From NCBI GenBank assembly GCA_003999685.1, contig CP021220.1, positions 1,736,001-1,800,000 of the forward strand: a stretch of DNA of 64,000 nucleotides, read 5' to 3'. Under the pieces are notes generated by a model that worked only from the letters and a program-made list of their open reading frames with translations, had not been told where the DNA came from and did no database searches. The position numbers were made by a program, and so were the translations under genes. Shown in pieces: positions 17,031 to 60,700 of this stretch; the stretch's first letter is position 1; each line of letters starts with the position of its first letter. The stretch is from Taiwanofungus camphoratus (Eukaryota > Basidiomycota > Agaricomycetes > Polyporales > Taiwanofungaceae).

Positions 17031-20000
17031 ATGAGCACCCAAGAGCCGTCCTTCCGTGTACGAATAAACCAGATTGATCACACCATTGCCCAATCTGGCC
17101 CTCTCGACAATTCGTCACTCCCCCATGTACCTATTATCAGAATTTATGGGGAGTCCTCAACTGGGCAGAAGGCCTGTGTACACATACATCAAGTCTATCC
17201 TTATTTTTTTATTGAATATGCCGGCAAGATGAATCCCGATAGTGGTAATGTCGTAAATTCACTCTAGAGCAGCATAGTTTCTCATTCTTTGGAATAGTGA
17301 ACCGTTACATCGCTAGATTGACTCATTCCCTTAATCATGCTATGGCCATTTCAATGAAGCGCAACCCGCACTCCCCGAAATCCCAGTTCGTGCGCGCTGT
17401 TCTGCTTGTCAAGGGTGTTCACTTCTACGGATTCCATTCATCCTACTCCCCATTCCTCAAGATTCTCATTGCTGATCCTATATTCGTCAATCGAGCGGTG
17501 ACTATCATGCAATCTGGCACAATCATGAAGACTCATTTCCGTGTATATGAAAGCCACCTCAGTTATCTCCTTCAGTTTATGTGCGACTTTGGGCTTTATG
17601 GATGCGGCTGGATCGACCTCGGTGAGATTTGGCAGCGCGGACAAGATGAAGCACAATACCGAGGCCAGGCATCTGTGTGCACGCTTGAAAGCGAAGCTCG
17701 CGTGGGGGAAAATGCACTCAAACCGTCGCCGCATTTCCGCCAATCGCGCATGCCTCTTGAGGCGGATGCAGTTGCACATCAGATCTTGAATCGTCACCTG
17801 CTTAATGCACGGAACATGCATCACAAGCTGACCATTCCTGCGAAGCCGCTCCCGCTAGAGCCGCTTGTTCTCAGTGTGCGTGAGCTATGGGAAGACGAGC
17901 GCCGCCGTAGGCTTGCTAAGGGGTTATCTCCGTCTCCAGAGATCCCAAAAGACCCGAGCGAGAAATCAAGAGGCCGGGGCGCTGAATGGATTGCGGAAGC
18001 CCGATGGTGGGAAGAGATTAGGAAGAGAATCGAGAAGGAGCAAGGGAAAGAACAAGTGTTCAGTACTGGGAAAGGGTGGGAGAGGTGGGTTATGACAACT
18101 TTCGAAAGCATTGAAGCTCTTTGGGAAGATGAATGGAGAGTATGGAAACCTGGAAGAGGGGACGATGATGCAGCTATGGAAGAGCAAGCTGGAGAAAATG
18201 AGATCCAGGTAAATCCATACGATGCAAGCCGAGTCTATGAACCTTGGAGTCAAGAACGCGGATATAATCCGGGTAAAACAGAGGTGGATGTAGACGAAGA
18301 AATGCTGTCCAGCCAGACCATGAATCAACTAGTCGAGAATGAGGAAGCTGAATGGCAGAAGCGGGTAGGCGGGCATGGGGCGAATGACGAGTACACGCTT
18401 GAAGACGATGACGCTGCTGAAGATGGTCCACCCCCGGATATCCAGTCTAACGATCTACAGGAGGATGGAAGGTTGGTCGGTTGTCCGGAACAGGCTAGGG
18501 ATTTGCTGATGCGGTCGCAGCTCTGAGGCGCGCGAGAGATCGCCAAGTTCACCTGTACAGCGACCCAATCCGTTCGCAGAAGCGTGGAATAAACTAGCTG
18601 GGTGTGTTCTATTGCAACATTAATGCAATGAGAGAGATACCGATACTATACCCAGGCCACCAAGACATCGATCGTCTTCCATCGTGTCAACTGACACCTC
18701 GAGGACGCCGAGGTAAGGCTGCGAAAAAAATTTCATTTTTCAACAAGTAATCAAGTAATCGACACTTATCAGAGCAAGAATGGCAACAACACCATTTGCA
18801 ACACCTCCAAGGGTGCTAACACATCGAACGGCGCCTGATGTTATCGACATATTCTCCCCCGGAGTGGAGACAGCTACTCATTCTCAGGTTGCTTCGTTGT
18901 CGGCCGCGTCTACCAAGTATGTATTCTAATGTGCGTGGAATAAGAAACATTTCGAGTGATTTACCACCATTTGTGCCAGAACCATAAATATGGCGTCCTT
19001 TGTTCCGACAGTCGAAGAATCCCATGGGCAGGAAGGAGGCGGAGTTGCTGTATTGCCTCTAGGCGGCCCTTACGCAGATCCAAAGTAGGGAACGGCGAAC
19101 TGTCATATGTGGCAACACTCATCTGTTTTGAGAAATAGGGTACACCATTCGGCCGATCCCGGCAGTGCATCAGGTCTAGCATCCTACTCCATCATTGATT
19201 CTAGACGCTCATTTGCAATGCACTGTGACAGTTCCCTTCCTTGTCCGTCCTGCTCCGAATTTTGAGACGACGGAAACATTGAATGATAAGAGACACCATT
19301 CCGCAAGATTGACCAGAATTGGTGATGAATGTAACAGGTCTTCGAAGAGGCGAAGACCGAGCCCTACAATAGCTATGAGTAAAGATCACCTGTCAAACTC
19401 TTCACATTCATCGTCGTCGGTGCTGTATACATCATCAAGTGAAGAAATTGCGTCCCAATATACCAACTCGGTCCCCTTGACACTGGCTGACGGCTGTAGA
19501 ACGAATCCTAATCGCTACGTATATGCACACCTCCCGCCTTCCACGTCAGAGCTGGTGGGAAGCGTTGATAATTACGGCATCCCCAGCAAGATCTATCGGG
19601 ATCCGTATTATTCTAAACAAAGCGATGTACCGGAAAAGCCGAGAGAGTATGCAGGGTTAGTTTTCCACCTTAAAGGTGGAGATGTCCTCGAAGAATGGCA
19701 TAGCGCTTCCCGTACGCTCGTTGACAACTCGGCACTCAAGAGGACGACAAAGCTTCATTCCATCGGAATCAGCGGTTGGGAGTATGCTAGTTCTGCCCCG
19801 AGCCCCGGGCGCGTACGTGGATGGCTGGAAGATGAGAAATACCAAAAGTACAATTCGAATCCTCGCCCAAAACAGACATCGCAGGTACATTTGATTATTT
19901 TTCGCTCATAAGGCTTTTGCGCTACTGACGTTAATGAGCTAGATCGAAGGACCTACTCAGTTAAATCCATATGGATTGAAAGGTTCGCTTGCGAAGCGGT

Positions 20001-23000
20001 CGAAGCTGACTCCGGAAAGACAAAACATGAGCGTGTTTGCATTGGAGATCTTTGGTCAGTAATCGAAATATCTGATACATGGGTGTTATTTAGATGTTGA
20101 CTTCTCAAATAGCACTTTCTCGGGATGATCGTCGTCCCGACCCCGCCATAGACGAGATTGTCGCAGTATTTTACTCGTTCCGAGACTCCGACGTCGACTA
20201 TTCAGACGGTGATGGGGCATTCGTGTGCGACTCGGGCATTATTGTAGTCGAGAATGCCCAGTTTGACATGCACAGATTACGTTCCACTTCTTTCGAAACA
20301 GTACCAACTGAGTTAGACCTACTGAACAGGCTTGTCGACGTGGTAGTGGACATAGATCCAGACGTCATTGTGGGATGGGAGGTACAGGCCGCCTCGTGGG
20401 GGTACCTGAGCGCCAGAGCAGACACATACGGTTGGTCATTCTTCACTGAATCGGCGCCACTCCCTCCACATGAATGCTAATGACAGCCGGAGGTCTTGAT
20501 ATTGGTGATCAGATATCGCGTGCGCCTGGTCGACATATTGGTGTTGGTTCAGATCAGTGGGGCATGAGGACCATGTCGACTTTCAAGGTTGCTGGTCGAC
20601 ATGTCTTGAACTTATGGAGAATTATGCGTGCCGAGCAAAACTTCACGAGTTATACGTTCGAGAATGTAGTATTCCACATTCTACGACGGCGGTGAGTGAT
20701 GAGACGGGCTTGAGATTTCAAAAAACTGAGGTTGGGCTCCTTGAATAGTGTTCCACGATATTCTTCGAGAACTTTGACTGAGTGGTATTACAGCACAGTT
20801 CCCAATCATACTTCCAATATCCTGCATTACTTCTCCCGTCGCGCGTCTATGGTTCTAGAAATTTTGGATATGGCTGATGTTATAACCAAGAATGTGTGCG
20901 TTATTGATTTTTTTGTTATATACAGGCCTAGATCTAAGCTTTTCTAGCGAGTTTGCTCGTGTCTTTGGCGTTGATTTCTTTTCGGTTTTAAGTCGCGGAT
21001 CTCAGTTCAAGGTAGAGTCGTTTATGTTTCGAATAGCTAAGCCGGAGAGCTTTGTTCTTTTGTCACCCAGTAAACAGGACGTGAGTCGTTGATAATCTTC
21101 CGTATACCTCACACACTTGAGGCTTTCTTTACTAGGTCGGCAAACAAAATGCGGCGGAATGTATGCCACTAATAATGGAGCCGCTTTCTGCATTCTACAA
21201 TAGCCCTCTTGTAGTATTAGACTTTCAATCACTGTATCCATCCATCATGATTGCCTACAATTATTGTTATTCAACTTGCCTGGGACGCATTACGGACTTT
21301 AAAGGACAGAACAAGTTTGGTGTCACGGAGCTGCGCCAACCTGTAGGATTATTAGATACGTTACACGATCATATTAACGGTACGCCGTTCTTGTCGTTCT
21401 CGGCCAGATAATGACTAATGTCGAATGTTTTCTAGTCGCCCCTAATGGCATCATGTATGTGAAACAAGACGTGAGGAAGGGACTCCTGGGAAGGATGTTG
21501 ACAGAGCTGTTGGACACGAGGGTGATGGTCAAGCAGGCAATGAAGGGAGTGAAAGACGACAAGGTCTGCATCCGCGACTCGGCGAACGTGATTTGACGCG
21601 ACCTTCCTGCAGGCCCTCAGGCGTATTCTCGACGCCCGCCAGCTCGGGCTGAAATTCATCGCTAACGTCACGTACGGTTACACGAGCGCCACTTATTCTG
21701 GCCGAATGCCTGCTGTCGAAATTGCTGATAGTATAGTGCAAAGCGGTCGAGAAACCCTCGAGAAGGTGATTTGCAAGCACGTCATGGTTCCTGGCAGGAT
21801 GATTGATCTGTATACTGAAGGCGATACGCGTAATCGATTCGACAGAGAAATGGGGGGCCAAGGTTGTCTACGGTGATACAGATTCGTTATTCGTCTACTT
21901 GCGAGGCAAGACCAAGGAGCAAGCCTTTCGAATCGGTTACGACATGGCGGAAGCAATCACCGCTTTGAATCCTGCACCGGTCAAACTGAAATTTGAGAAG
22001 GTAATGAGGACGGTTGTATTCTATCTGGACTAGGCGATTCAATTTGGCCTTACGGTACTCTAGGTGTATCTTCCGTGTGTCTTGATGGCCAAAAAGCGTT
22101 ACGTTGGATTCAAGTTCGAGAATCCTGATGACAAGGAACCAGGATTCGATGCCAAGGGTATTGAAACTGTCCGTCGGGATGGAATTCCCGCCCAGCAGAA
22201 GATGACGGAGACTTGTTTGAAGTAAGATTTGTTTTCGACAGCTCGATCACTCGAGATTAATTAGATCACAGGATTCTGTTTCGAACTCAAGATTTAAGCA
22301 AAGTAAAAGACTACTGCTGTAGATCCTGGACGCAGATAATGGAAAATAAGGTCTCCATTCAGGACTTCATCTTTGCCAAAGAAGTGAGAATGGGCACATA
22401 TAGGTATGTATTGTCCATCCGTTGCAGCGGCACAAAGGTCTGAACTATTTATGTCAGCGATAAGATCCCTCCACCTCCCGGCGTGACAGTTGCTGCACGG
22501 CGCATGGTAGAAGATCCGAACGACGAGCCACAGTATGGAGAGCGTATTCCGTATGTTATCGTGCGCGGGGAGCCGAATTCCAGGCTAGTGGATAGGGCAG
22601 TCGCCCCGGATGAGCTCCTCAAGAACAGGTACACTCATCTAATATCACGGGTTAATCTCTTTTGACTAACGTGCGCAGTCAAAAACACCTGGATGCGGCT
22701 TATTACATCTCTCGTGTGCTTATTCCCCCTCTAGAGCGCATCTTTAACCTGGTCGGGGCAGACGTGAGGAGTTGGTACGACGAGATGCCGAAGGCGCTGC
22801 GGGCTGATCAGCCTGACCCGTTGCTACTATCACCAAGAAAGCTCAAGAAGAACGTGGACGCGGCAAACGCATTGAAGATTGACGAGCACTTTTCAACGAC
22901 GCATTGCATCCTTTGTGGCGCCCTCACGCCGGAAGGTACATCACTTGATTTCTGAAGGTCTTGGGGATACTCAATGACGACTATCGTACAGGCTTGTGTG

Positions 23001-23260
23001 AAGTCTGTCGATTGGATCCTCAGATATCCATCAGCGGCCTTCTCTCACGACTACACCTCACGGAAGATCGACTGCGAAATGTGCAGATGATTTGCGGCTC
23101 CTGCACCGGCACAGCACGTACAGAACCCATCAAGTGCGACTCACTGGACTGTCCATGGTTGTTTGAGAGGAGGAAGGTCGAGAACAAGGCCGACTCCTTG
23201 GTTGTCATAGAAAACCTGATCAAAGAGCTCGAAGGGGAACGGCAAGATGCTGAGGATTGA
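17031..23260 (+). CDS. REV3: DNA polymerase zeta catalytic subunit
   Basis: B-family polymerase for error-prone translesion synthesis. Model, 22 exons, 1,698 aa: join(17031..17244,17298..18471,18521..18601,18656..18712,18773..18916,18980..19084,19139..19173,19205..19884,19943..20054,20113..20430,20487..20691,20749..20895,20948..21080,21136..21379,21436..21563,21613..21765,21821..22000,22064..22221,22272..22403,22458..22628,22679..22935,22992..23260). An N-terminal domain (MSTQEPSFRVRINQID) leads to a variable acidic middle, the exonuclease-like region (VDIDPDVIVGWEVQ), then EFARVFGVDFFSVLSRGSQF, motif A DFQSLYPSIMIAYNYCYS, motif B KFIANVTYGYTSATYSGRMP and motif C VYGDTDSLFVY. The end carries the Cys motifs CILCG, CEVC and CGSC...C...C that bind zinc/Fe-S and accessory subunits. 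The 31-nt intron 19174-19204 is suspiciously short, so that join is uncertain. Confidence 0.94.
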
Positions 23261-25495: not shown

Positions 25496-28400
25496 ATGCA
25501 CCACCACACAGGCAATTCGCAGCAGGTTGCGGGGGAAAATCCCCCACTGCCGAGCAGCTCTGCTCATCAAACGGTGGGCTTCCATGCCACCGACTTCTTT
25601 CAGCTGCAGCAACAGGGCTGGGACCCCCATTCTGTTTGCACACCATCGCTAGATCCCGAAGATGTACTTCCTGCTGGCCCTCTAGCGAACAATTCTACAA
25701 CCATGCCGCCCACGGCAAGACCTCTACTGTCTCACAGCAGCAACCCATCGCCATCCCATCAGGGCGTAATTGGTAAGCGCATGTATGCACCTCATTCTTC
25801 TCTCCCGGATCTTTGACGATATGCCTGATTTGCATTCAAGGCAGCTTCAGAGGTGCAGCGACGGCCGGTGCAGGTGATTCACACGATAAAATAATACCGA
25901 TCGTGTCGCCACATTCTCGCCCGTTTGGCGCTCACACCGATGAGCATCCTCCAATGGCCGACCCCTCATCCGCACATCCTCGAGCGGATCTGGGCCAGAA
26001 CCCGTTCGCGACTGCTATGGCACGCGACGCCGCGATGGCCTATGCATACAACTTGTATGAATCGCCAGCAAATCCACCGCCAGCAGGCCTTACTTCCCTT
26101 CCACTAGCCCACTCAAATACACCCATAGTGCTATCAACAGAAAATATCTACCGGTTCCGGCTTTTGCCTCTCCTTACTTCGTTGCGCTCCGTGCATCCAG
26201 ATCATCTCCCAGTCTTACTTCTCTTGGCCTGCACATACCACGCTCTAGGGGAATATGAATCTAGCTTGGCACTATGCTTTCAAATTTTGGCTATTGATAG
26301 TACTTGCGTGGAGGCCATGTCCAACGTGGGCGTAACCTATAAAGCGCTTGGCCGTGCCGATAAAGCTTACGAATGGTGGTGGAAAGCCCTTCAGCTTCGT
26401 CCTACTTACTGGGATGCTTTGGCATGTGTCTCGTTCCGATAATATTGTCGGCCCACCGCTAACACTGTCAACAGGACAATATCCTCGGACTGCTGTTTGC
26501 GCTCGCACAGAGCGTCTCCGATGTTAGCCGCCGTATAGTCTATCATCAACAGGCCTTGGAGCTTTGTCAATATGTGCAGCGAAGGACTGTTAACAGCGAA
26601 GGACGACTTATCATCTCTGTCCCAAACGATGAACTCCATCGGCTGCAAAGAGTGTACTTCACGTCTGCCACTCTTCGTACATTGATCTCTTCCGATGATT
26701 TTCAGGGCGTGATCGACGATTACTTCAAGGCAGTCGAGCTCGTCATCAGACCTCCGTCTCCGTACTCTGAAGAGGAGTGTTATACTACACGAGACTTGCT
26801 CCTGTCCGTCTGTGTAGCAGGCTATATGCTATCGGCGGCGTCCAATGGCCCAATACCGCCCGAGATCCTTGCAAGCCTTGACGTAGACGGATCTCTCCCG
26901 TTCTTGGAACGCAGTGCTGGGCCCGGGCTCAACCTGCTTAGTGTTGTGCATGCTTCTGGTGACAGACTGGTGCAAGCATTGCTCCATGTGGGCAGGGGCG
27001 CGTTACCTGTTCTGCTCCTTCTCCCTGAACAAGTCATGCGATCTTTAATCATTATCTTCCCGACGTATACGGGTGTATTACCATCGATCTGCACTCGAGC
27101 AGCGACGAGCAGAAGTGTGGAGCTCCTTTCGGAAATCACCAGGCAGCGGACCAACCTGATGACGAGCACTGTGGTACTTACGTTGGCCAAGAGGTTTCAA
27201 GATGATGCATTGGAAAACAGGACAGTCCCTGGCTTCGGCGGTACTATTCACATCAGCACGTCGTTGGTGATCTTGTTGTACTACACCGCGTTGACCTTGT
27301 CGCCGTCCCCGTCGGCCTACAACAATCTGGGCATTTTGTTATCCAACCTTTCGTCCGCCATGACATTGAGAAATCTACAAGGGCAACAGCATTGGGTGGA
27401 TGGACCCATGCTCGCCAGAATCTATTACCAGGCTGGATTGCAGATCGATTCGACCCATCCTCATCTGTTGACTAACCTGGGGTCACTGCTCAAAGATCAT
27501 GGGCAGTTGGAACAGGCCATCGAGTCAGTCTTCAGCTCCTGCTACGCAACCTGATCAGGCCTGACGAGGCGTGATTTATTCGGAAGGTTATACATGAGAG
27601 CTATCCAGCGCAAGCCAGACTTCGACATCGCGCTTGCCAACCTAGGCAACGCGATCAAAGATATGGTCCGTCTCAAGATGTTGATATATACGCGTCACTA
27701 ATTTGTCCTCAGGGCCGTTCCTGGGATGCCATCGAGTACTATCGTCGGGCCGTTAGCGTCAATCCAGATCTCCCAGAAGCGACGTGTGGCCTGGTTAATG
27801 CCCTATGTTCAATCTGTGATTGGCGTGGGCGCGGTGCGGTCATGCATGAGGTCGGGGTGGACGATCTGGGTGACATCCTTTGTCCTAGACAAACAGGAGG
27901 TGCAGCGCACCCTGGATGGATCACGAATATGATTGAAATATGTGATCGTCAATTAAACTTGGGATATACACAAAGCATCGGTATTATCGAGAAGTCTGGT
28001 ACGCTCGACCAGTGGCTGCAGGTTGTCGAGAGTGCGAAGGGGCATTCCCTTCGCCCAGATGAGCGAAGGAGATGGACCGCATCATTCCAGAGGTTCTTTG
28101 GCAAGACCGATCGAGTACAAAAGAGGATCAACGAAGCAGGCTTCGTCCTCCGGTTCATTGATTGGGTGCAACCTCGACTCCAGCGCCAATGGTACATCCA
28201 GGCGTACGGGAAAAGACTTTCTTCCGAGCAGCCTATCTTTGATCTCTCTTCGGATCGCAGTTCTTCTTTTCTCCGACCCCCTTTGCCAGGCAATCTGGAT
28301 TGCCCTCCTACCCCTTCGGTCCTTCCCTTCCATACCGTGAGTCTGTCTTGTTCGAACAACTAGGCTGGTCTCTCACTCACTGGTAGTTCACTTACCCGTT

Positions 28401-30600
28401 GTCCCCAAGACTAGCACGTCTCATAGCCCATCGAAACGCGCTTCGCATTTCCTATACGGCGTTCTCCCAGTCCTGGCTCCCAAGACATGTGTTTCATCCG
28501 CCGCCGCCCCCTGTGGGTGGCAAGCTGAATATCGGTTACCTTTCAAATGACGTGAAGTACGCACTTACTCTTGTCTCGGCGCACTTTGCGCTGACCGATG
28601 ACCCTGCAGTGACCATCCTCTGTCGCACCTGATGCAATCCGTGTTTGGATTTCATGATCGTGATCGTTTCGCTGTCTACTTGTATACCACAAGTCCTTGG
28701 GACGGCTCCGGCTATCGTCCAAAAATTGCGACCCGAGTAGACCATCTCTTGGATGTGTCTTCATGGCCTACCAGTGCTATCATAGAGCATATTCTCCATC
28801 ATCAGATTCACATTTGTGCGTGTTGCGTATTCCTTTGTGCCATGTTCATTAGCCAGAACATGTTCCCCAGTGATCAACTTAGGTGGCTATACCAAAGGCG
28901 CGAGAAATGATATTTTCGCAGTACGGCCATGTCCCATACAGATACAGCTCATGGGCTATGCGGGAACACTAGCAGCAGGTACAATGCCATCATCATTACG
29001 AAACTTTACGTTTTTCTTGCTCACCATCTGTACACCTGTAGGCTGGTGCGACTATCTGGTCTGCTGTGAGGTTTCATGCCCTCGGCAAATGAGCTCAGCA
29101 GAACTTTGGCGGCGACTCAGAAGGGATTTCCAGACACAGTTATCGCCAGACGAAATTTCCGTCGCTGGTATCACATTCGACCTCGACGCGGACGCGGATC
29201 CCGAATCACCTTCAGATGATTGGGTGTAGTGAGTTTAGGATCGGCATCATTGCCTCTCCTCATCTTAAATCTTGATTTGGTGCTGCACAGTACGGAAAAG
29301 CTGATTTATATGCCCGTTCGCAAGCTATTCACCGGTCCTGAGAGTTTGGGCTTTGACCTTTGATTTTTTAGCATACTTTTATGGCAACAGACCATAAGCA
29401 GTCCTTCCGCGAAGACGAGAATCTTAGCCCAGAAGAACGTGCCCACACACCTGTGGAGAAAGTATGGCGTGATGAAGAGCGGAGACGAGCGGAAATGCGA
29501 CAACATGTATTCCCTGATCTTCCCCCGTATGCTTTCTGTATCATGCCGACAGTCGCCATGGGCTGATTTCTGACTCAAGAGATGTTGTAATCTTCGCCAA
29601 TTTCAGCCAGGTAAGAAAATATGCACCAGCAGGTTTTCATACATCTGACGCAAGATGTAGCTTTACAAAGTATTGCTTACAATCCTTCCGGAAAGAGCGT
29701 GACTGATCTGTGTACTGTAATTTCAGGTCGATCCAGTAAGCAGCATATTCATACTTTGATTGCACATACCTAAGATGTCATTCACAGGGTATTTTTGCTG
29801 TATGGCTGAATATTCTTACCAAGGTACCGCATAGCATACTTTGGCTTCTCAAGTTCCCTGCTGCGGGTGAGGAGCATCTCCGTCGTGCAGCGAAAGCTTG
29901 GGCCGGTGAAGCAGTCGCTGCACGGATTCATTTCAGTGCTGTGGCCAGGAAAGATCAACACGTGTATCGCGGGCGTGTAGCTGATTTATTTCTGGACACC
30001 GCTGAGGTCAGCATCTCCATGCTAGAGCAGTTATCCCTGGGCTAACGGGTACATGGTTCTAGTGTAACGCGCACACAATTACAGCAGAGTAGGTATCCCT
30101 GTATATGTATTGTTCGTATCCGTATGCTTATGTCGTCTGTCAGCGTCTTGTGGACGGGCACACCGATTTTGACGCTTGCGACACATCCCTATAAGATGTG
30201 TGCTCGTGTAGCTGCGAGTATGGCCAATGCCACTGGCTTCGGAGATCAAATGGTGGTGGAATCGATCGAAGAATACGAGAATCGAGCCGTGGTTTTTGCG
30301 AACAGTATTCAGTACGTATCTGTCCAGGAGCCCTCCGGCATTGCAGAGGCTCGCGGCCGCGGAGCCCTGATCAACCTTCGTCGCAACCTTTTTCTCAACC
30401 GAGATCGTATGCCGTTATTTGACACGATGAGATGGACAAGAAATCTAGAGAAAGGCCTCCATGAAGCGTGGAGACGTTGGGTAGAAGGAACACAATATGA
30501 GCTGTCGGATGAATGGGAGGCTAGCCTGCGCCAAGAAAAAGACAGTGGGTGTATCTGGGTGACCGACGATGCCCCAAACGAAGTCATTCAATATAATTGA
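25496..30600 (+). CDS. O-GlcNAc-transferase-like TPR glycosyltransferase (GT41)
   Basis: Model, 17 exons, 1,403 aa: join(25496..25772,25841..26421,26475..27523,27587..27665,27713..28336,28387..28556,28610..28815,28871..28978,29042..29228,29291..29315,29372..29526,29580..29610,29661..29669,29727..29735,29788..30006,30063..30088,30144..30600). A disordered N-terminus precedes TPR repeats (CTYHALGEYESSLALCFQIL, VGVTYKALGRADKAYEWW, LTNLGSLLKDHGQLEQAIE, LANLGNAIKDMGRSWDAIEY). The catalytic half shows LNIGYLSNDVNDHPLSHLMQ, INLGGYTKGARNDIFAVRP, NFSQLYKVDPGIF, VPHSILWLLKFPA, LWTGTPILTLATHPYKMCAR and FDTMRWTRNLEKGL. These match animal OGT and plant SPINDLY/SECRET AGENT. Donor substrate is not decidable by eye: UDP-GlcNAc or GDP-fucose. 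Intron 26422-26474 is GC-AG. Confidence 0.93.
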
Positions 30601-38496: not shown

Positions 38497-41400
38497 ATGC
38501 GCCTTGCCTTTTTCCTGCGACACAGGCGCCGCCTCCTCATGCAATTAGACCCTTCTCAGCGGCTGTCTCCTCTCGCTTCTCCGTCCCGCCCATCATCCCA
38601 TTCTACCCTCAAGCGGCCTTTTGTGCACCAAGCAGCCGCACAGTCCGCATCCACCACTTCATCTTCGACGTGCTCGCCCACAACTGACCTGCCTTCCGAA
38701 TCTGAGCGTCCTGGTAAAGTACCGAAATTAGACGGCACGGCATCACCTTCCGCATCTGCGTCCACTTCCGCGCCTAAATCTACGTCTGCGTCTAAACTAC
38801 CCTCCATGTCCCGCTCCAACCACCCTCATGCGCGCCATACTTCCGGTCCCTCGCTGCTGTCCAGGATGCCTCCGCCACAGGCCCCGTCCTCGGGAAGAGG
38901 ACGGAGAGGAAGGGCTACTGCTGCTGCGGTCAAACAGACCCTGCCAGGCCCTGTGTATGACCAGGATTATATCACGAACACCTATAGAACGAAACATCTC
39001 AAGTCGGCGTGGGAGGAAAATCCAAAGTCGCCTCTTGCAAATTTCTATAGTCAGCATTTTAACGACCAGCCAGTGTATGAATCGACGCAAGGTATCGGTG
39101 CAAACGGGCGAACTACATGGAGGTATGTATATCTTCGACTGGTTGTATTTTTGGGCTGTGCGACTGACGGACTGGCTTCGCAGATCGACAATACGAATAC
39201 ACGGTGGCGATATCGATATCACTGCTCATGGCGATAATCCAAACAGAAAAGACTCTGAGAAGCTTGCGGCATTATGTGCGATGTATCAGCTAGATGGCCA
39301 GGGAGTGGTATGTGCGACTTCCGCAGCAATGATACCGCTAGAGATGCTTACAGCCATTGCTTATATTGTAGTTAAATCGGGCCCCGCCGAAAAGTGCCTC
39401 CAAGAAGGAAGAAGAATTCCCGCCCTCCGAGGTCAAACTGTCCGATGGCAGCGTTGTCGGCTACGAGCGAGCTCGTGAATTCATGGATTACTATTGCCGG
39501 CGCTTCCGTTTTGGCAAGCCCGACATTACTTACAGCAATCCGAACCCCCGCGCGTCTCATACGATCTGGCAGGCGGACATGACTGTCAATGGGAGGCGCA
39601 TAGGCTTCGGCAAGGGTCCAAACAAAAAAATGGCGATGACGAGTTGCTACGTTGATGTCACACAGTACCTCGAACAGTGCGACCCGAGCGTATGGAAGGA
39701 GTTCCTGGCCGACGCGAGGACGGGTCGGGACCTCGGGATGGCGCCGCGTGTGCTATTTCAGATAGATGAAGCTTTGGATGATCAGATACACGATCTATGC
39801 GTGGACATCAAGCGCAGCACACTCTATAAAAACAGGCCAGTGATCGGCTCGCAGGTGACAAGGGGTGATGCACCAGATTCGACTGGTGTCCAGCCTCCAG
39901 TCGCACCCAGAATGCCGTATCGACGTCAGGCGCCGACAGAGGTATTGGAGACTAAGTCTGAACAGCTACGCAAACGCAGGGAAGAATACCTGCAGGACCC
40001 CAAAATGGCTAAGATGCGCGAAACGCGTGCCCAGCTTCCTGTCTATACCAAGTCCGCCGAACTTCTGCAGCATATACGGGACTATGAGGTGACAATTTGC
40101 ATGGCGGCCACTGGGTCCGGTAAGACGACGCAGATCCCGCAGCTCATTCTCGATGACATGATTGAGCGAGGCGAAGGCTCTAAATGCAATGTTGTTTGCA
40201 CCCAGCCTCGGCGCATCGCCGCCATCACCGTCGCTGATCGTGTGGCCAAGGAGAGAGGAGAGGTTGCCGGGAGAGGCTCCTCGGTGGGATATCAAGTCAG
40301 ATTTGAACATAATCTACCGGACGAGCATGGTTCGATCACTTTTTGCACGACGGGTATCTTCCTCAAGAGGATGCAGTCAGCCTTGCTTGGGGGTGGCTCG
40401 ATCGGTAGAAGTTTGGACGATGTCACACACGTCGTTGTTGACGAAGTGCATGAGCGTGATGTCGACACTGATTTACTGCTCGTGGTACTGAAGCGTCTGC
40501 TTGCAGAACGGAAGGCACGTAACAAGCCTATCAAAGTCGTGCTTATGAGCGCGACGATCAATCCAACCCTGTTCCAGGAGTACTTCCCCGATGAAACAGG
40601 TAGACCCACAAGTGTGATAGAGATCCCTGGCCGTGCATTCCCTGTGGAGAAGAGATACCTGGATGACTTCGTTCCCGAAATGGCAAGTAAGCAAAGCTCG
40701 GCATGGGTGTTCCAGGATGAGGCCGTACAGAAGTACCTCGCGCATCAGATGGGCTCAGCGGCGCCCGTCCCACGCAATTCTCGGCACCGCTCTTTGAATG
40801 AGCCGTCAGTATCGGTTCTTTCATCAGGAGACAGCCCTCGTGATGACGACCTCGACATGCCCATCCCTCTGGTAGCTCTGGCTATCGCACATGTACTTCG
40901 CAACTCAAGCGATGGTCACGTTCTGGTCTTCTTACCAGGGTGGGATGACATCATGGCTGTGCAAAGGTGTCTCTGGGATACAAGACCCCTGCTAGGTGTC
41001 AACTTCAACGACAGCAGTAGCTTCAAAATTCATCTCCTGCATTCCAGTATTCCTGTTGTGGAACAGCAAGCAATCTTTGAGCCTCCTCCTCCAGGCATAA
41101 GGCGTATCATCCTCGCAACCAACATCGCCGAGACATCTGTAACAATTCCAGACGTGGTCTATGTCATTGATACCGCGAGGGTCAAAGAACAGCGGTATGA
41201 TCCTGAACGACACATTTCCTCGCTTGTCTCGGCCTGGGTCGGTTCGTCGAATTTAAACCAGCGAGCTGGACGTGCTGGGCGGCACCGACAAGGAGAATAT
41301 TATGGTCTACTCAGCCGACAGTTCGCAGATAGTCTGCATCCGTACCAGACTGTGGAGATGAAACGTGTGGATTTGAGTAATGTCGTCATGCATGTCAAGG

Positions 41401-42859
41401 CGCTCAATTTCCCGGGCATGACGGTGGAGGAAGTCCTTTCGCTCACCATCGAGCCGCCAGCTCCTGAACGAGTAGCAGCGGCTATGAAGTCACTGCAGAT
41501 GGTGGGTGCTCTCGACGCCGAAAATAACCTTACCTCTCTTGGGCGAGTACTTCTTCAGCTGCCAGTGGATGTGCAGATGGGCCGCCTTGTGCTTTTCGGA
41601 AGCTTCTTCCGGTGCTTGGATCAGGCGCTGACACTGGCAGCAATATTGACTAATCGAGATCCGTTTGTTGCACCCATGCACCTCAAGGTCGAGGCTGCGA
41701 GAGTAAAGAACTCGTGGTGCCCAGAAGAGTTTCGCTCAGACGCATTGGCAACTTTGCGTGCGTTCAATGCCTGGTGGGATTTACAGAGACGAGGCGTATA
41801 TGTTGCTGCGAACAAATTCTGTATGGACAATTTCTTGGCCAAGCCGACCCTTCTGATGATCCAGAAGATCAAAGAGCATATTTTCCAGTCACTTTATGCG
41901 GCCGGTGTCATTGACGTCTCGGCTGGTGGAAGCGTCTCGTCGCAGCCAGGTGGTCCATCAAGAGGAGAAGCGTTTACCGTTCCGTCACAACTAGACCGCC
42001 ACGGTGATTCGCTACCCCTCCTTGCTGCTCTCATTGCAATCGCTACGCAACCGAAGTTCGCGATCAGAACAGGCGAGAAAATATACCGGACAGCTGAAGA
42101 CAAGGTTGGTGAATCTCTGTTTATCTCGTTCTTTCACACTGACGCACATGTTCAAAGACCGTGTTTATTCATCCTTCAAGTGTAAACCATCGAAAAAGGG
42201 AGCTCTTTGACCAACAAGATGGGAATGCGGCACCGACTGAGAAGCAGATCATCGCTTATGCGGAAAAACGTCAAAATGTATCTGTTGGCTCGGCTAACGC
42301 CCAAAAATTCTTGGTAACAACAACTCGACTGGATCCCTTGACATATATTCTCTTTGGGGCCTACCGTATAGAGGTAACAGCGCGAGGACTGGAGTGCGAC
42401 GAATGGCTACCGATCATCGGTAGGCAGGATGCGCTGGATGAAGTCGAACGACTCAAGTCGTCGATGGAGTCATGTTTGCTCCGTGTGTTTGAGGGTATCA
42501 TTGCAGGAAGGTCGCAGCAGGGTAGGCGCAAAGTCTCCCCCCGCGTTTATGACCGTGAGCAGGAATCAGGAGACGAAGATGTCGAAAAAGACCTGTCTCT
42601 TTCGGACACCGAGATCAAGGAACTGGACCTAATGACCGGGGATATTGTGCAGATCTTGAATCGTTACAGCACGTATCGCATGGCTATGCAGTCGCAGCAC
42701 AATTCCCGACCTGCAACACCGATGGAGTCTCCATCTATGGCGTCCAGTCGACTGCCGTCTATGAGCGGGTCGCGTTCTGGGTATTCAACGCCTTACAATA
42801 TGGGTTCATCATTCAATTCAAGGCCGGGCACTCCCAGTCGTTTGTCTCGAAGGTTCTAA
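38497..42859 (+). CDS. DExH-box RNA helicase with dsRNA-binding-like regions (DHX9/DHX30/DHX36 group)
   Basis: Model: join(38497..39122,39184..39307,39372..42104,42158..42859), 1,394 aa. A Ser/Pro-rich start and an RG-rich patch (SSGRGRRGRATAAAVK) precede two dsRBD-like segments (around TIRIHGGDIDITAHGDNP and IWQADMTVNGRRIGFGKG). The helicase core is complete: motif I ATGSGKTTQIPQ, Ia TQPRRIAA, Ib TTGIFLKRM, II DEVHERD, III MSATIN, IV VLVFLPGWDDI, V ATNIAETSVTIPDVVYVID and VI NQRAGRAGRHRQG. Winged-helix/ratchet and OB-fold regions follow (AIATQPKFAIRTGEKIYRT, LTYILFGAYRIEVTARG). Motif II reads DEVH rather than DEAH. The tail is Ser-rich. One exon of 2.7 kb holds most of the core. The start ATG is the first in frame after an upstream stop-free but unconserved lead. 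Confidence 0.93.
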
Positions 42860-43233: not shown

Positions 43234-46200
43234 ATGGCCACTAACATGCGAGGTCTGACGCAGGTCTGTTCAACGCCGACTCAATGCCATTGTCTGTCAT
43301 CGAATTGAATACGATGTTATGTAGTTCATTGCGGATATACGAGGAGCTCGCGTTAGGGAGCTTGAAGAGAAAAGGATTAACAAGGAAATGGCCAACATCA
43401 GGAAGAGATTCAAAGGTACCGTGAACAATCCACATGAGCTCTCGGTCTTATTCCCAATGAATCACTAGACGGGAACTTGGATGGATATCAGAAGAAGAAG
43501 TCAGCTTATATATTGTGACTATTACCAAGGTACTAACATATATCGCAATGAAGATACGTTGCAAAGGTTATTTTCACGTATATCCTCGGCTATAAAGTCG
43601 ACGTTGGGCATATGGAAGCCGTCAATCTCATTTCGAGCTCAAAGTATAGCGAAAAGCAGATCGTGAGCATTTCAGGTAGCAGGGTGTGACAGCAAATTGA
43701 TGTGGGTTCGGCCAGGGCTACCTTGCGGTCACTTTGCTCATGCACGAGAACTCGGACTTCTTGCGGCTAGTGGTTAACTCAATACGCAAAGACCTCAACG
43801 AGAACAATGAAGTCAGCAATTGTCTTGCTCTGCATGCTATTGCGAATGTTGGCGGACAGGAAATGGCTGAAGCTCTGGCGGAAGATGTGCACCGCTTACT
43901 GATATCTCCGTATGTTTCGTCTATGTGAAGCATGCCATGCGCGTGCTAAGTATTGTAAACAGAACATCCCCGAAGTTTGTGAGGAAAAAGGCTGCACTCA
44001 CCCTGTTGAGAATATACCGCAAACACCCAGACGTCATCCCGGCTGCTGAATGGGCTTTACGGATAGTGGCTCTCATGGATGACTTGGACCTGGTGAGTAT
44101 AACTGTTCATGTACCATACTTTCGGTTATAAGCCGCATCTAGGGTGTTGTTATATGCGTTACCAGTCTGGTTATGGCCTTGGCACGAGATCATCTGGATG
44201 CGTACGCTGTTTGTTATCAGAAGGCCGTGGACAGGCTGCATCGGGTGAGTGGTTATTTCATGCATCATGAGGCTGCGCTTACATGTCCAACAGCTCGTTG
44301 TAGGACATGAGTATGCCGCCACTTATGCATATTATAAGGTCCCTTCGCCGTGGCTTCAGGTTAAGCTGTTGAGACTTCTACAATATTATACACCTTCAGG
44401 TGCCTTTTTTCCAGTTCTTTAACAAACTGAAATCACTGACAGGCTGTGATATTAGACGATCCGACGATCCAATCTGTCTTGCATGAAGTACTACAGACTA
44501 TCATGAACAATTGTGCCGAACCTTCCAGGAATGTGCAGCACAACAATGCTCAGCATGCAGTGTTGTTCGAGGCTATCAGCCTGGCCATTCACCTGGATAC
44601 CAGCTCTCCTCTTGTCAACACAGCTGCTGTCCTTCTCGCTCGATTCATCAGTTCTAAAGAGACAAATGTGCGCTACCTTGGGTTGGACACTATGGCGCAT
44701 CTTGCAGCGCAGACAGACAGCCTGGGAGCGATTAAGAAACATCAAGGAACGATCATTCTCTCTCTCCGCGACAAGGACATATCAGTCCGGCGTCGTGCTC
44801 TCGATCTACTGTACAGTATGTGTGACACAGATAACTCGGAGCTCATCGTAGGCGAGCTTTTGAGATATTTGAAGGTCGCGGATTATGGCTTACGGGAGGA
44901 GGTGGTGCTTAAGATCGCCATCTTGACTGAGAAATATGCAAGCACGTACAAGTGGTACGTCGACACTATATTGGAGCTACTCTCTGCTGCCGGCGATCAT
45001 GTCGGCGAAGAGGTATGGTACCGTGTGGTACAAATCGTGACGAATACGGAGGACCTGCAAGCCTATGCTGCTAAAGTGGTATTTGAATACCTCAAGTCGC
45101 CTTCATCACATGAAAGCCTGGTCAAAGTTGGAGGTAGGTAGTCTGTACTTGGAATATCACATGGACCCATCAGACGTCTTATATTCGTGACAGGTTACAT
45201 TCTTGGAGAATACGGCCACCTCATTGCCAATGAGCCAGGATACAGCCCTATAGAGCAATTCCAAGTACTTCACTCCAAGTCACAGTTCTGTATGGCTCCA
45301 ACACGTGCCCTTCTTCTTTCGACATATATCAAGTGGGTGAATGTCTTCCCTGAAATCAAGCCTCAGCTCCTCAATGTCTTCGAGCGCTATCGACATGTTT
45401 TGGATGTCGATCTTCAACAGCGTGCATGCGAGTTCTATGCACTTGCCTCGCGGCCAGACGATGACGAGCTACTACAAAATGTATGTGAAGAGATTCCTCC
45501 GTTTCTACCACGAGAAAGCGCCCTCTTGGGTCGACTCAAGAGTAAACATGGTGACAAAGACGTGACGTTGGAGCGGGAAGGCACCAGGAAGATGTTGAAA
45601 AAGCCAACGTTCGCTGAATCAAATGGTAACGGCACTACAGCAGCGACCAATGTTGGAAATGATATCACGAGCTCTCTCATGGGCCTTGATCTGTCAGCGT
45701 CTCCCGTCAGTGCTCAAGCAACCGCATTCTTTCCAGATGCATCAGCGCAGTCTTCTGCTGCTTTGGCTGAAAGGGGTATTCCACGTCTGACTGCGGGCCC
45801 CAATGTGGAACGGTGGTTTGAGAAACTACTGTACAGTGCAGAGGGGGTTCTCTATGAAGATGTTCAGATACAGATCGGCATCAAGTCAAGGTATCATGGA
45901 CACCTCGGTCAGCTGGCTGTTTACATGGGCAACAAGATTTCAGCACCTTTGACATCGTTTACGGCTACCCTACATGTCGAAGAGCCGGACGCAATATCGG
46001 CCACGTTCACCAAAATTGCACCAAGTATGATTGCCCCTCGAACGCAAACCCAGCAGCTGCTGCATGTCGAGTGCAAGAAGCCATTTACCAAACCACCAAT
46101 ATTGGCCGTGTCGTTTTTGGCGGGTTCTCATCAAACCATTGCCGTGCGCCTCCCCATTGTCATCACCAAGTTCCTTGAACACGTTAAGCTGGGCCAGGCG

Positions 46201-46476
46201 GACTTCTTCGAACGATGGAGGCTGATTGGTGGCCCACCGCGGGAAGCACAAAGCATTTTCCCCATCACCCTTGATGCCGCAGGCCATATTGATCGAGGGA
46301 AACAGCGGCAAATTGTATCAGGGTTCTCCTTCAATTTACTTAACGATGTCGATCCCAACCCAAACAATTTAGTCGGCGCTGGCATTCTTCATATGTCAGC
46401 CGATGGCAAAGTTGGCTGCTTGATGAGACTGGAACCTAACAGGGACGCAAAGGTGCGAATCAAACTTATGCTATGA
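43234..46476 (+). CDS. APL3: AP-2 clathrin adaptor, alpha (large) subunit
   Basis: Large subunit of the plasma-membrane clathrin adaptor for endocytosis. Model: join(43234..43263,43325..43415,43469..43499,43554..43662,43716..43909,43963..44092,44143..44244,44294..44399,44456..45133,45194..46476), 917 aa. The trunk shows [93 protein letters not shown] and [17 protein letters not shown] hinge (around residues 640-700) leads to the ear domain ending at KVRIKLML. An alternative start is the second ATG, which gives MRGLTQ, as in many homologues. The acceptor before DDPTIQS was set by reading frame. Convergent with the RasGAP gene. Confidence 0.94.
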
Positions 46477-46708
46477 TGTCGCTGTACTGAGTGAGCCTTA
46501 TCAGCTTTGTCGCATCACTGTGCGGAGTACGTCTGAGGACGTGGCTTCTGAAATACAGAAATTGGTGCAAAAGCCACTCAGCGTAGACTCCCAATCATAA
46601 CAATCTATCCCTTGTTTTGCATGGACCACCTTTGAATATACATCATACGTGTAGTGATATACTGACAACTAATAATTATACCGGTACTAAGATGAATGGC
46701 AGAAGTTC

Positions 46709-54702: not shown

Positions 54703-57700
54703 ATGTGGTGGTCGGACCCAGGCAAGGAGGTCTTGAACATCGTATGTGATTGCAATTGTGGACGCGTAACGTGAACGGTCTAACGATTCTGATCGAATCA
54801 GCTGTTCAACCGTGTCCTTGCTCCATATGTCGAGAACTTGGACATGAACCAAGTGAACTATGGAATTGGCCAGGGTATACCATTCTCCAAGCGAATAGAA
54901 CTAGGAACTGACTCATGGGCTAGGTCGTGTTACATTGAGCAACCTGCGATTGAAGAAGGGAGCTCTAGACAAATTCAGGCTGCCGGTAGATGTAATTGAA
55001 GGCAAGGATACTTGCATTCGTTGGACGCAAATGATGCCATTGCTCTCATAGGTCATCTTGGAAAGTTCACGCTGTCCCTCCATTGGATGAACTTGGGGAA
55101 CCAGCCTGTGGAAGTTTTGGTCGAAGATGTATATCTGCTCGTCGTTCCGTCTTCTGAGTCGGCATATGACTCGGAAGAGGAGGAACGGAGAAAGCATGCT
55201 ACAAAGATGGAGCGTCTAGAAAATGCAGAGTTGCTACATATGCGTGGCCAGTCGGAAGTGTCACAGGGTGCGCGAGATTATCGGCAGGTTTCCCATAATG
55301 CTCATGTTACCTCTTGAAGATACCCCGCAGCCCCAAGGATTACTGGCCTCGCTTGTTGCGAAGATAGTCAACAATCTTCAGGTGTCCGTTAAGAACATCC
55401 ACGTTCGATATGAAGATAAATTGAGTGTACCTGGCGTGAGTCTAAGACTACTGTTCTGGGTGCGCACTTGATGTTTATTCCCTCTTCAGCACCCTTTTGC
55501 TGCCGGTGCCACATTGGCGGGCTTCACTGCTGTCTCTGTCAACGAGAAGTGGGAGCCTGCGTTCATCGACAGCAAGGCTGGTGCCATACATAAGGCAAGA
55601 TAGTTCTATAATATATTGCGAGCCTACAGACAATGCTCAACGACTAAACTTTTCGCAGTTGGGGAAATTGGAATCCCTCGCGATTTACTTCGACACCGAT
55701 GCTGAGAGCATGGCCGGATTGTCTCATGTGGACTTCATGAAGAAGTTCACTGACCAGGTATAGATTCTCGTCCACTTTTGCAGCACTGTTGATCTGGAAT
55801 GACGCGCATTCTAGATATCAACAGGAGGCCACTTGCCTAGTCACCAATTCATCCTCAAACCAGTCACAGGAGAGGGCAGGGTAGATCTTTTCGTCTTCGA
55901 TCCTTCGTATTCAGATTAACACGGCCGCAGATTGTAATGAATCAGAACTTGGACAGGGAGACACCGCGATTTGACGTGCAGCTCCTTTTCGATGAGATAG
56001 GCGTATTATTAGACGACAATCAGTACCGTGACATCATTTCGCTCGTTGATATGTACCATTTTTATACACGTCAACATCAGGTACGTCTTGTATTTTGGCG
56101 TATCGCGTCGAACTCACTGTCACACTTCTGATCAGTATCAAAAATACCGTCCCCCGATAGACAAACTTGAAGAAAATAGGCCAAGGGCGTTGCTCCGCTT
56201 TGCTGGAAGCGCCGTACTGGATGAAGTACGCGAGCGCAGGCGCAAGTGGACTTGGTCATATTTTGCAGAGCGACGCGACGATCGACATCGATACGTTGAA
56301 TTATTCAAGAGGAAGCAGCTGAGTCCATTGGCAGAAACGGTGAGTTCTTAGGCGACGGTTCAAACGGTAGCCAGTGTAACTCATTCTCTGTGATTGATCA
56401 GGAGTCATCGGAATTTGACGCGTTGGAACGAAAGTTAACATACGAGGACATCCGGTTTTACCGCTCGATCGCACGCTCGCAGCTCCGGAAAGATATCGCA
56501 TCAAGAAAGAAAATCGAGGAAGAAAGGAAGAAACAGCAGTTGCAGACGCGGACCAGCTGGACCAGCTGGATATGGGGTTCGTCAGACGACACATCTTCGA
56601 CCCCGGACGAATCCGCGTTCTCCGGAGACTTGACGGACGAGCAGCGCCAGCAGCTCTATGAGGCTCTTGATTATGACGAAAAGGCTGCTCTGGCGGAGTC
56701 CTTCGAGACACCCCGGGACGCCCTCAAGGCCCGCGTGGCGACACAGTTGAAGCGGGGTTCGTTCGCTTTGAGGTCGGACCCGCACGGAGTGAACATGGAG
56801 ATATTGTCCATTGTGTCTGATGTGTTCCAGGCTACCTTCATACAAAGGCCAGACAACTTCGAGACGTCTCTCTCGCTTGGCAGTTTCGCCGTCCGTGATG
56901 GAACAACAAAGAACACTCTATATCCTCAGATAGTGCACGTCCAGGAGAGTCAGAATGGCGGCGAAGTCGTCAAGGCTCAAGTCATCAATGATGACAAGAA
57001 AATTCCGGATACGGTCGGCCCTTTCTTGTTCCTGAAATTCGAACAGAACCCTCTCGACGGCCGTGCAGACAGCGCACTGATTGTGAAAATGCGCTACATG
57101 GAGATTGTGTATCACAAAGGGTACATTGAGGCAGTTTATAGGTTCTTCAAGCCTCCTTCCAGCCAGTTGGAGTCTGTTGAAGCACTTTTGGTGGGACATA
57201 CTGAATCTGGTGGATTCCTTTAGCCTAATTTGTACTACCAGGACGTAGCAAGTCAGACCCTCGAAGGTCTTCGCAAGGAGACCAGAGCGGGTCTAGAGTA
57301 TGCACTCCAGACGCACAAGACCATCGACGTCCAGATGGACCTCAACGCGCCCATAATTATCGTCCCTGAGGAGTAATCGCTCAACCTTTCGTGTCTTGAC
57401 AGGAGCTCACGCATCATTCGCAGCGTCGCCTCCTACAATTGTAGGCATCTCGTTATTGATGCTGGTCACATTGCAATCGAGAGCGACCTTGTGGACAAGA
57501 AAGCTATACAGGATATTCAGGCAAAACGCAAGCAACAGTACACGGCTGAGGACTACAGACGTTTGGAATCCATGATGTATGATAGGGTATCAGTAAGGCT
57601 GCAGGCCGCTCAGGTATTCATTATTTTTCCCCTGCCGAGACAGTATTGACATTCAGACGCAGTTTCTCATTGGTAACGATCTCGAATCGTGTCTCGAGGC

Positions 57701-60700
57701 TCTCAAATCGAATTCACAAGACAATCTTCATTTGTTGGAGCGTGTCAATCTTGACCTTCAGGTGCAGAACTCCATCGTACCAACTGCTTATAATCTCGCG
57801 CGATTTAAGATTTCAGGGCATTTACCAACTCTTCAAGTAAACCTATCTGACAGCAAATACAAGTCTCTGATGAGATTGATTGACGTTTGTATTCCAAACT
57901 TTGATTCAGATGATGACGAGACACCAGCAACTCGCCCTTTACCCAGTCATGATGGACCAAGAGCTTTCCGGATCTCTTCGGGCCTATTTGGCTCCTCCGG
58001 GACGGAATACAACGTAGAAGATGGTGAAGAGGATCAGGATGAAGCTGCAGGTAGTACTCTCCAGGGTCAAGAGGACAACGATGATCAATTTTTCGAAGCG
58101 AATGAGGGTGTCATTGAGGTAAGTCATGCCGCCATCAATATCCGATGCTAATTGCTGATTCTACGATGACCCGTACAGAATCCAGAGCTACATCAACACA
58201 TTGTTGAATTCGATTTTCAGGTGGAGACCTTACAGGCTTCCCTATTGAAATCTGGTAGTGACGGCAGCGAGAAAACTCTCGGAGATGTTACATTCCACCG
58301 ATTCTCTCTGGCATTTTCTATGGCCAAGTACGTCATGAATGTGAACGTGAACCTCAGGTGGGACTTTACCACTTCAATTGCAACGTCTCCTGATTCTTGC
58401 ATCAGCGCAGTATCGATGAACATCGTCCAGCTGGGAAGGGGACCCATCGAATTCGTATCTTCCCCAGAAACGAGAACGGAGGGAGATCTTCTGTCCATCA
58501 AGTATACTCGAGTGCAGCAATTATCGCCAGACTATTTGACCGTATACGAGGGCATGGACCAGAGCATTGACATCAAGATCACGACATTCGTATTTCGTGT
58601 TGCTCCCGAACCGATACTGTCTTTATATGAATTTGTGATGACGACATTCGTACCCCAGCAGGCTGACAAAACTGTTGCTCCATCAGAGAGGGAGGTTCCT
58701 CACATACACGATGGGGCTGCAGATGTGGACGTCGATCAGAACTCTGTCGAGAAGATCCGGGTTGTGTTGAAACTTGCCGGCATACAAGGTGATGCTCTAC
58801 TCCTGTTACTAGTCGCCAAAACTGACAAATTTCTCAGTTATTTTGATCAATAATGACATCAGACTGGGAACACTGTCGCTGTCGACAGCAAACGTGTCCA
58901 TTCTTTTCCGTGCGAATACGATGCGGGTCAATGCCCGCCTGGGAAGTCTAGACCTTCACGATGATTCTGAGATGGAGACAGCGGTACCGACATTTAAACA
59001 ACTTCTCTCCATAGAAGGTGATAATTTTGCGGATTTTCAATACCAAACATTCGATCCAGCGGACAAAGACACGTACACCGGCATCAGGTCATCAGTTCGT
59101 CTCATCACTGGATCGCTCAAACTTCTTTACCTCGAGCAATCTTTGCATGACATGTACCTTTTTGTTGCCAAACTGGCTAAACTGAAGGGACTCTATGACG
59201 CCGCCGCTGAAGCTGCTGTGCAAAAGGCGTCGGAAATTGAAAGAATGCAGTTTGAAGTATCCATCAAGACTCCTATTGTCGTGTTCCCATCCGACCCCTT
59301 GCGGACGCGTGATGTATTGACTATGCGTCTCGGCGAGCTCACTGCTCGGAATAGCTACGAAGGCGATACGAACCGGATCAATGCAAGCCTTCGTGGTATT
59401 CAATTATCTTCGCGCTTTTACTACGAAAACGAACCGTCGGTTCTCAAAATGGTCGATGACATTGATGCCAATACGGATATTCTGCAGACAAGTGGGATTG
59501 ATCGCGCTAAAGATACCGATCATCCTGACACGCAAGTAACTACAGCTTCCTTAGTTTCACAGCGTCCGACTCTGACGATCCTTATAAGATTACGATCAAG
59601 ATTTCGGATGTTCGCATGCATCTGACTCAATATCAATATGGATTACTCGTAACTTTGTCTCAGTCTATTCCAAGGGTACTCGCTGGTGTACCTGAAGGTT
59701 TCGCTCAGGCCAGTGAATCCTCTGTATTAGACAGATCTTCCGCCATCGAAAAATCTCTGGTGTCGATACCTCATGTCGAACTGCAGCCTGAACTAAGGAC
59801 GATACAGTCTGTTGAAGCTCCGCGACCATGGCCCACCATCGATCTCGTCGTTACTGTGAACACCGTCAAATTGCACTTGTATGACGAATTCGCTATCACC
59901 GATGCTGACCTAAAGGATCACGGCATTGCGAGATTTGCTCTCAATCACAATAGCCTGAGGATCAAAATACTCTCCGATGGCGCGATGGAAGCAGAGGTCA
60001 TTTTCAAGTCGTTGACAATGAACAATACGCGACCAGGAAACTCAAGATTCCGAGAGATAGTTCCTGCGGTTACACACGAACGGAATCAAGTCATGCTTCT
60101 GTTCACGAGGTCTGGTGCAAACGGTGGATCTACCATGGCGATATTGACCGTAGACTCCCCCAAAGTCATCTTCTCTGTAGATCCCATTATTACACTTATG
60201 AAATTCTTTACTAGCGCATTCTCACCACAAGCTACTTCAGTGCAATCGGATGGGCACTTGGATAGTCGTAGCGACATCACAGAACAAGATTCGCAGAACT
60301 CACGCCTCGATTTCCGTCTTGACCTTCATGATGTCTCAATCAGCGTGCTAGAGGATGATTCTGATTCGGAATCTCAGGCAGTTCGTTTAACTGTCAAACA
60401 AGTTCTCCTCTCTCAACAGGTCGGTTAGTATATCCTAGCATTCTCGCGTAGTCTGACCGAGATCTGTAGGGTATCTTTGCCCTCAGTGTTAATCGTCTTG
60501 GCATGTCTCTGATGCGCATGGGCAAGACCGATGAAAATGTGCGGTTCATGGACGATGTTGATTTCACATTGTCTTTGGATAGCCGCTCGAGCTCTGTGGA
60601 ACAATCGTCGGATATAGAAGTCTCTGTCAAACCAATTGTATTTCGGGCGTCCTATCGAGATATCAACCTAATTACGACAATTGCAAATAGAGCAGTTGAG

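Follow-up and report, generated by a model that had tools for sequence, protein, structure and literature searches.

The OGT-like gene and its surroundings

The window (the whole stretch of 64,000 nt analysed here) contains an O-GlcNAc-transferase-like (OGT-like, GT41) gene, whose spliced model, constructed from directly read sequence, comprises 17 exons and 1403 amino acids, with the frame open throughout (Table 1). The start codon is a predicted one, and exons outside the conserved regions are placed less securely than exons 12–16. Within residues 158–1403 of the model, Pfam searches recovered both the catalytic domain and the N-terminal TPR repeats that characterise GT41 O-GlcNAc transferases: PF13844 (Glyco_transf_41) matched over two stretches (E 2.6e-100), and 12 TPR models matched at E ≤ 1e-3, 10/12 of them above the curated cut-off. 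The top PDB match for the same residues was to chains of the OGT 110 kDa subunit (E 4.9e-131), to which the TPR stretches also aligned; these chains are taken to be human, the species not being printed in the alignment. A GT41 search of the organism's own genome (33.2 Mb, 15 contigs) gave four matches, and since 4/4 were exons of this same locus the gene looks single-copy. Judged from its sequence, it apparently encodes a single-copy, intact O-GlcNAc-transferase-like (GT41) enzyme.

Small exons (25, 31, 9, 9 and 26 nt) crowd into the latter half of the catalytic domain, between 29291 and 30088. Exons of ≤30 nt make up 4/30 of the internal exons in three genes of the window, and all four belong to the OGT-like gene. 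Intron 2 of this gene (26422–26474) is best read by eye as a GC-AG intron (TTG/gcatgt...caacag), joining YWDAL to DNILGL.

Upstream lies a gene for a REV3-like DNA polymerase zeta catalytic subunit (about 17200–23260; E 2e-164 to chain 7lxd_A). Elsewhere in the window are a DEAD/DEAH-box helicase with a double-stranded-RNA-binding motif (39372–42185), AP-2 alpha adaptin (43234–46600), in which nine short GT-AG introns were placed, and VPS13-like stretches (56300–60428). At the level of the genome, DUF6533 gave at least 60 matches, six of them clustered within about 39 kb on contig C9 (about 534980–573824), and the class II peroxidase extension gave one; together these are presumably consistent with an Agaricomycete, perhaps one poor in ligninolytic peroxidases. 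Neither O-GlcNAcase (GH84, PF07555) nor the microexon splicing-factor domain SRRM_C (PF15230) had any match in the organism's own genome, and both likewise had none in 14 control genomes. When the fungal OGT protein was compared with genome contigs, 28 stretches were returned, 0 of which were confirmed as relatives; viral contigs returned five stretches, again with 0 confirmed, and a degenerate pattern had 0 matches there.

Table 1. Location of the OGT-like coding span and of selected exons and introns within the window
Feature	Position	Strand	Support or remarks
OGT-like coding span	25496..30600	+	spliced model, PF13844, OGT PDB match
Exon 10, 25-nt microexon, YTEKLIYMP region	29291..29315	+	aligned to yseklaymphtf (short, weak stretch, 7.2 bits)
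Exon 12, 31 nt, ends NFSQ	29580..29610	+	spliced model, spliced alignment
Intron 12, 50 nt, gtaaga...gatgtag	29611..29660	+	branch-point-like CTGAC 29645-29649
Exon 13, 9-nt microexon CTTTACAAA, Leu-Tyr-Lys	29661..29669	+	sequence, spliced model, spliced alignment
Intron 13, 57 nt, gtattg...tttcag	29670..29726	+	branch-point-like CTGAT 29703-29707
Exon 14, 9-nt microexon GTCGATCCA, Val-Asp-Pro	29727..29735	+	sequence, spliced model, spliced alignment
Intron 14, 52 nt, gtaagc...tcacag	29736..29787	+	spliced alignment
Exon 15, 219 nt, GIFAVW... to ...LDTAE	29788..30006	+	spliced model; first part also spliced alignment
Exon 16, 26-nt microexon, CNAHTITA	30063..30088	+	aligned to cnghttgm

Two consecutive 9-nt exons

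The preliminary description had proposed that two consecutive 9-nt exons lie between NFSQ and GIFAVW, and this structure was recovered at exactly the same coordinates by an alignment independent of the gene model, and stood up to chance controls. All three introns concerned (introns 12–14) are GT-AG and phase 0, and exon 15 opens at 29788 with GGT ATT TTT (GIFAVW). At 9 nt each, with canonical sites, exons 13 and 14 are on predicted splicing well within the length taken to define a microexon (≤30 nt) and, with lengths divisible by three and flanking introns that share a phase, they have the frame properties of cassette exons. A 401-base query over introns 12–14, run with an introner-like origin in mind, matched only itself in the organism's own genome; no close copies of these introns were seen there, more diverged copies being possible.

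For the model-independent alignment, a 50-residue OGT segment (letters from the PDB alignment) and the raw DNA of 29372–29905 were given to a spliced aligner to which the gene model was not supplied, and which accepted exons of any length and weighted alike all GT-AG introns of 35–200 nt. Identical introns 12–14 were returned, gapless, with a score of 130. With the inner 165 nt dinucleotide-shuffled, 0/2000 versions scored 130 or more (the highest gave 127), and 1/1973 random inserts from the window surpassed the real one (131 vs 130; 2000 inserts were drawn, and 27 near the locus were dropped). A parse with the wrong insert can therefore also score well, making the whole-alignment test too lax, so a stricter test was added, in which six gapless residues were compared with LYKIDP under BLOSUM62 (possible maximum 33). 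By this measure the observed locus scored 32/33. Among 20,000 shuffles the top score was 17, and among 42,425 real placements in the window (every third base on both strands, leaving out + strand placements <200 nt from the locus) it was 15; none of the shuffles or placements reached 20.

These controls also bear on the proposition that some other splicing is real and the microexons are coincidental, with either a 21-nt exon (29696–29716, SVTDLCT) in their place or a direct join of 29610 to 29788. The 21-nt exon is indeed the best parse once exons <10 nt are barred, but its score falls to 96 from 130, a gap has to be introduced and the lysine found in 43/43 relatives is lost, while no shuffle or placement in the strict test approached the real match. 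We regard this proposition as hardly credible. The twin 9-nt structure, as predicted from sequence and homology, is confirmed to the extent that chance is ruled out for practical purposes.

Residues encoded by the microexons

The QLYK motif previously noted at this position is present, and alignment with the PDB chain places its lysine, Lys1167 encoded by exon 13, opposite Lys842 of human OGT (alignment position 852, chain 7yeh). Here the literature numbering is taken to be the 7yeh number minus 10, and with the same offset H558, D554, K898, H901 and D925 fall on the letters expected of them. D554, H558, K842, K898, H901 and D925 of human OGT all have identical counterparts in alignments with the fungal protein, which therefore possesses the QLYK lysine of GT41 provided that exon 13 is spliced in. 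The lysine was invariant in 43/43 bacterial GT41 loci, and the six columns encoded by the microexons were filled in every row; these loci had been found via a different motif, and in 43/43 that motif lay in an open frame.

It had further been claimed that this lysine is UDP-binding. That description is sound in so far as K842, together with K898 and H901, is reported to interact with UDP-GlcNAc, K842M, K898A and H901A each abrogating Nup62 glycosylation (PMC4840301). It is nevertheless loose: K842 is elsewhere described as the key catalytic lysine, K842M binding UDP-GlcNAc with similar affinity (PMC4703063), so the residue is better read as a catalytic lysine.

Two positions differ from human OGT, H498 being replaced by Phe (window 28328–28330) and T922 by Ile (30078–30080), the latter in a column with Thr in 41/44 rows and two gaps (43 bacteria plus human). 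We take T922 of human OGT to have a role; neither H498 nor T922 is established as required for GT41 membership. Because of these two differences the activity of the enzyme is not certain, and either its donor specificity or its activity could be affected; in the fly enzyme, the residue corresponding to H498 is among those listed as contacting substrate (PMC4703063).

Splice-site strength

Intron lengths and splice sites were compared over 33 introns of the window, 16 from the OGT-like gene, 8 from the REV3-like core and 9 from AP-2 alpha. All had been positioned by homology and visual inspection, and the REV3-like junctions are supported by the DNA polymerase zeta alignment. The position matrix was derived from 30 of these, introns 12–14 being left out and the others scored leave-one-out. 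In length, introns 12–14 (50, 57 and 52 nt) are typical of the other 30, which span 47–68 nt. Intron 12 has the weakest acceptor (rank 1/33) and a strong donor (rank 31/33), and the donor of intron 13 is weak (rank 4/33 from the weakest), such that, of 30 internal exons, the Leu-Tyr-Lys exon scores lowest for its two splice sites combined (0.9). Next lowest were the 25-nt and 26-nt exons of the OGT-like gene (1.8 and 4.6). The sites of the Val-Asp-Pro exon are ordinary or better (acceptor rank 21/33, donor rank 24/33). When scored on the 16 introns of the OGT-like gene alone, exon 13 was lowest for acceptor and donor both. The lowest place among 30 would fall to one of two pre-specified exons by chance about 2 times in 30.

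Having the weakest sites, exon 13 may be included leakily, and it lacks the strong sites reported for constitutive microexons in human brain, whose splice-site motifs are described as stronger (PMC8831610). The scores hint, weakly, that exon 13 is the likeliest spot for a splicing slip, which would predict both retention and skipping. Site weakness was considered as grounds for claiming regulated skipping, but that claim was not adopted, the donor being only fourth lowest among 33 introns.

Computed products of skipping and retention

That skipping of one or both microexons would remove the lysine in frame, as first suggested, proved true in part. The computed product keeps the frame in every case, and the lysine is gone when exon 13 is skipped (NFSQVDPGIF) or both exons are skipped (NFSQGIF), but it is kept when exon 14 alone is skipped (NFSQLYKGIF), omission of 29727–29735 alone leaving NFSQLYKGIFAVW. 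The skipped forms would need introns of 116, 118 or 177 nt, as against a maximum of 68 nt among the 33 introns. Retention of intron 12, 13 or 14 is computed to bring a stop after 1193, 1177 or 1177 residues, respectively, and with such early stops one would expect less enzyme, through decay or truncated protein, and not a dead enzyme of nearly full length.

Probable mode of splicing

Both microexons are probably included constitutively in the GT41 motif, joined by intron definition into a competent enzyme, with skipping at most minor. By this account the QLYK(V/I)DP segment would be interrupted by three short phase-0 introns that leave two 9-nt exons in a row; the spliceosome would pair splice sites across each short intron, so that exons too small for exon definition would still be joined; and the main mRNA would carry both microexons and yield a catalytically competent protein, any microexon skipping being a minor product at most. 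Splicing in fungi is reported to proceed mainly by intron definition (PMC2397502), under which a 9-nt exon is no obstacle, and constitutive inclusion is thus the default expectation. In fungi and protists, retained introns are put at 37 times cassette exons (PMC2397502), and in the mushroom Schizophyllum commune the main count puts exon skipping at 1% of events in coding regions (PMC5034255). The junction analysis of the same study, however, finds 7,851 alternative splice sites and 1,527 events of exon skipping within coding sequence (PMC5034255), so that by this measure skipping is not negligible, which counts against constitutive inclusion.

Two departures from constitutive inclusion were weighed. 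Leaky splicing at the Leu-Tyr-Lys exon might mainly yield intron retention, as the weak acceptor of intron 12 and weak donor of intron 13 would allow: retention is described as the commonest event in fungi (PMC5034255, PMC2397502), and in plants 50/69 constitutive microexons are reported to be flanked by an intron with delayed splicing (PMC8831610). Since introns 12–14 are of ordinary length, and the scores that mark their sites as weak rest on 33 introns, we consider this unlikely. Very unlikely, in our estimation, is a regulated omission of exon 13, with or without exon 14, to give an in-frame, lysine-less, TPR-keeping OGT that is dead or dominant-negative. It has in its favour that the skipped forms stay in frame, that the weakest of 30 exons sits between a strong upstream donor (31/33) and a better downstream acceptor (21/33), that human K842M is inactive (PMC4840301), that S. 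commune junction counts include skipping in coding regions (PMC5034255), and that there are fungal precedents in Trichoderma Xlr2 (PMC11121469) and in the Tuber NACHT-ANK genes, with their codon-size, alternatively spliced microexons (cited in PMC4986451). Against it are the scarcity of skipping by the main S. commune count (PMC5034255), joined introns of 116 or 177 nt that would exceed the longest seen, and the chance, about 2 in 30, that one of two named exons takes the lowest rank. The stronger proposal, that the Leu-Tyr-Lys microexon is a built-in switch, whose skipping takes out only the catalytic lysine triplet and produces an inactive full-length TPR-bearing protein in a share that varies with nutrition or fruiting, is likewise most doubtful.

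With constitutive inclusion, the spliceosome must join two consecutive 9-nt exons to build an active site, which makes the twin microexons a handy test of intron definition where exons are too short to be recognised by exon definition. There is also a practical consequence. Since both microexons have lengths divisible by three and are flanked by phase-0 introns, the frame would survive in an annotation that missed them, and the protein described would look full but lack the lysine. The pair would thus be an in-frame annotation trap for gene predictors, and surveys of fungal OGT could wrongly report lysine-less 'dead' enzymes. OGT function in fungi is said to be little studied (PMC3551598).

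Comparison with known systems

Apart from the two substitutions at H498 (Phe) and T922 (Ile), the fungal protein resembles human OGT in its TPR repeats, its GT41 catalytic domain and the matched residues K842, K898, H901, H558, D554 and D925, and differs from it in the stretch between the aligned blocks YMPHTF.. and LP.D.., which is 123 residues long in the human enzyme and 36 in the fungal one. No report of microexons in a fungal OGT was found in searches of the open-licence PMC literature.

A close likeness is to the P450 genes of Phanerochaete chrysosporium, nearly one-third of which are reported to have microexons coding for 2–10 amino acids, with a shortest exon of 6 bp and frequent introns of 45–55 bp (PMC1184071). 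There too basidiomycete microexons fall inside conserved enzyme motifs, for example the I-helix motif (PMC1184071, PMC12940212), but the enzyme family differs, and in the OGT-like gene two consecutive 9-nt microexons carry a single catalytic motif. Rice Os08t0562700-01x similarly has a 5-nt and a 12-nt microexon next to each other, validated by RT-PCR, although in a plant gene (PMC8831610).

The 1-nt exon of Fusarium CYP621A also lies within a conserved motif, was inferred by homology and had been missed in database gene models (PMC12940212), and the microexon of Trichoderma virens Xlr2 is a further fungal case in which loss changes the protein (PMC11121469). The Fusarium exon is confirmed by reads and its omission breaks the frame (PMC12940212), and inclusion of the Xlr2 microexon is reported to be glucose-dependent (PMC11121469), whereas the OGT-like microexons are predicted from sequence and homology, and their omission would keep the frame. 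The 2026 Fusarium paper raises the idea that tiny exons may be favoured where introns interrupt conserved motifs (PMC12940212). Set beside these systems, the twin microexons look real and stand as a neat extreme of a class already described from fungi, whose tiny exons occur inside catalytic motifs too.
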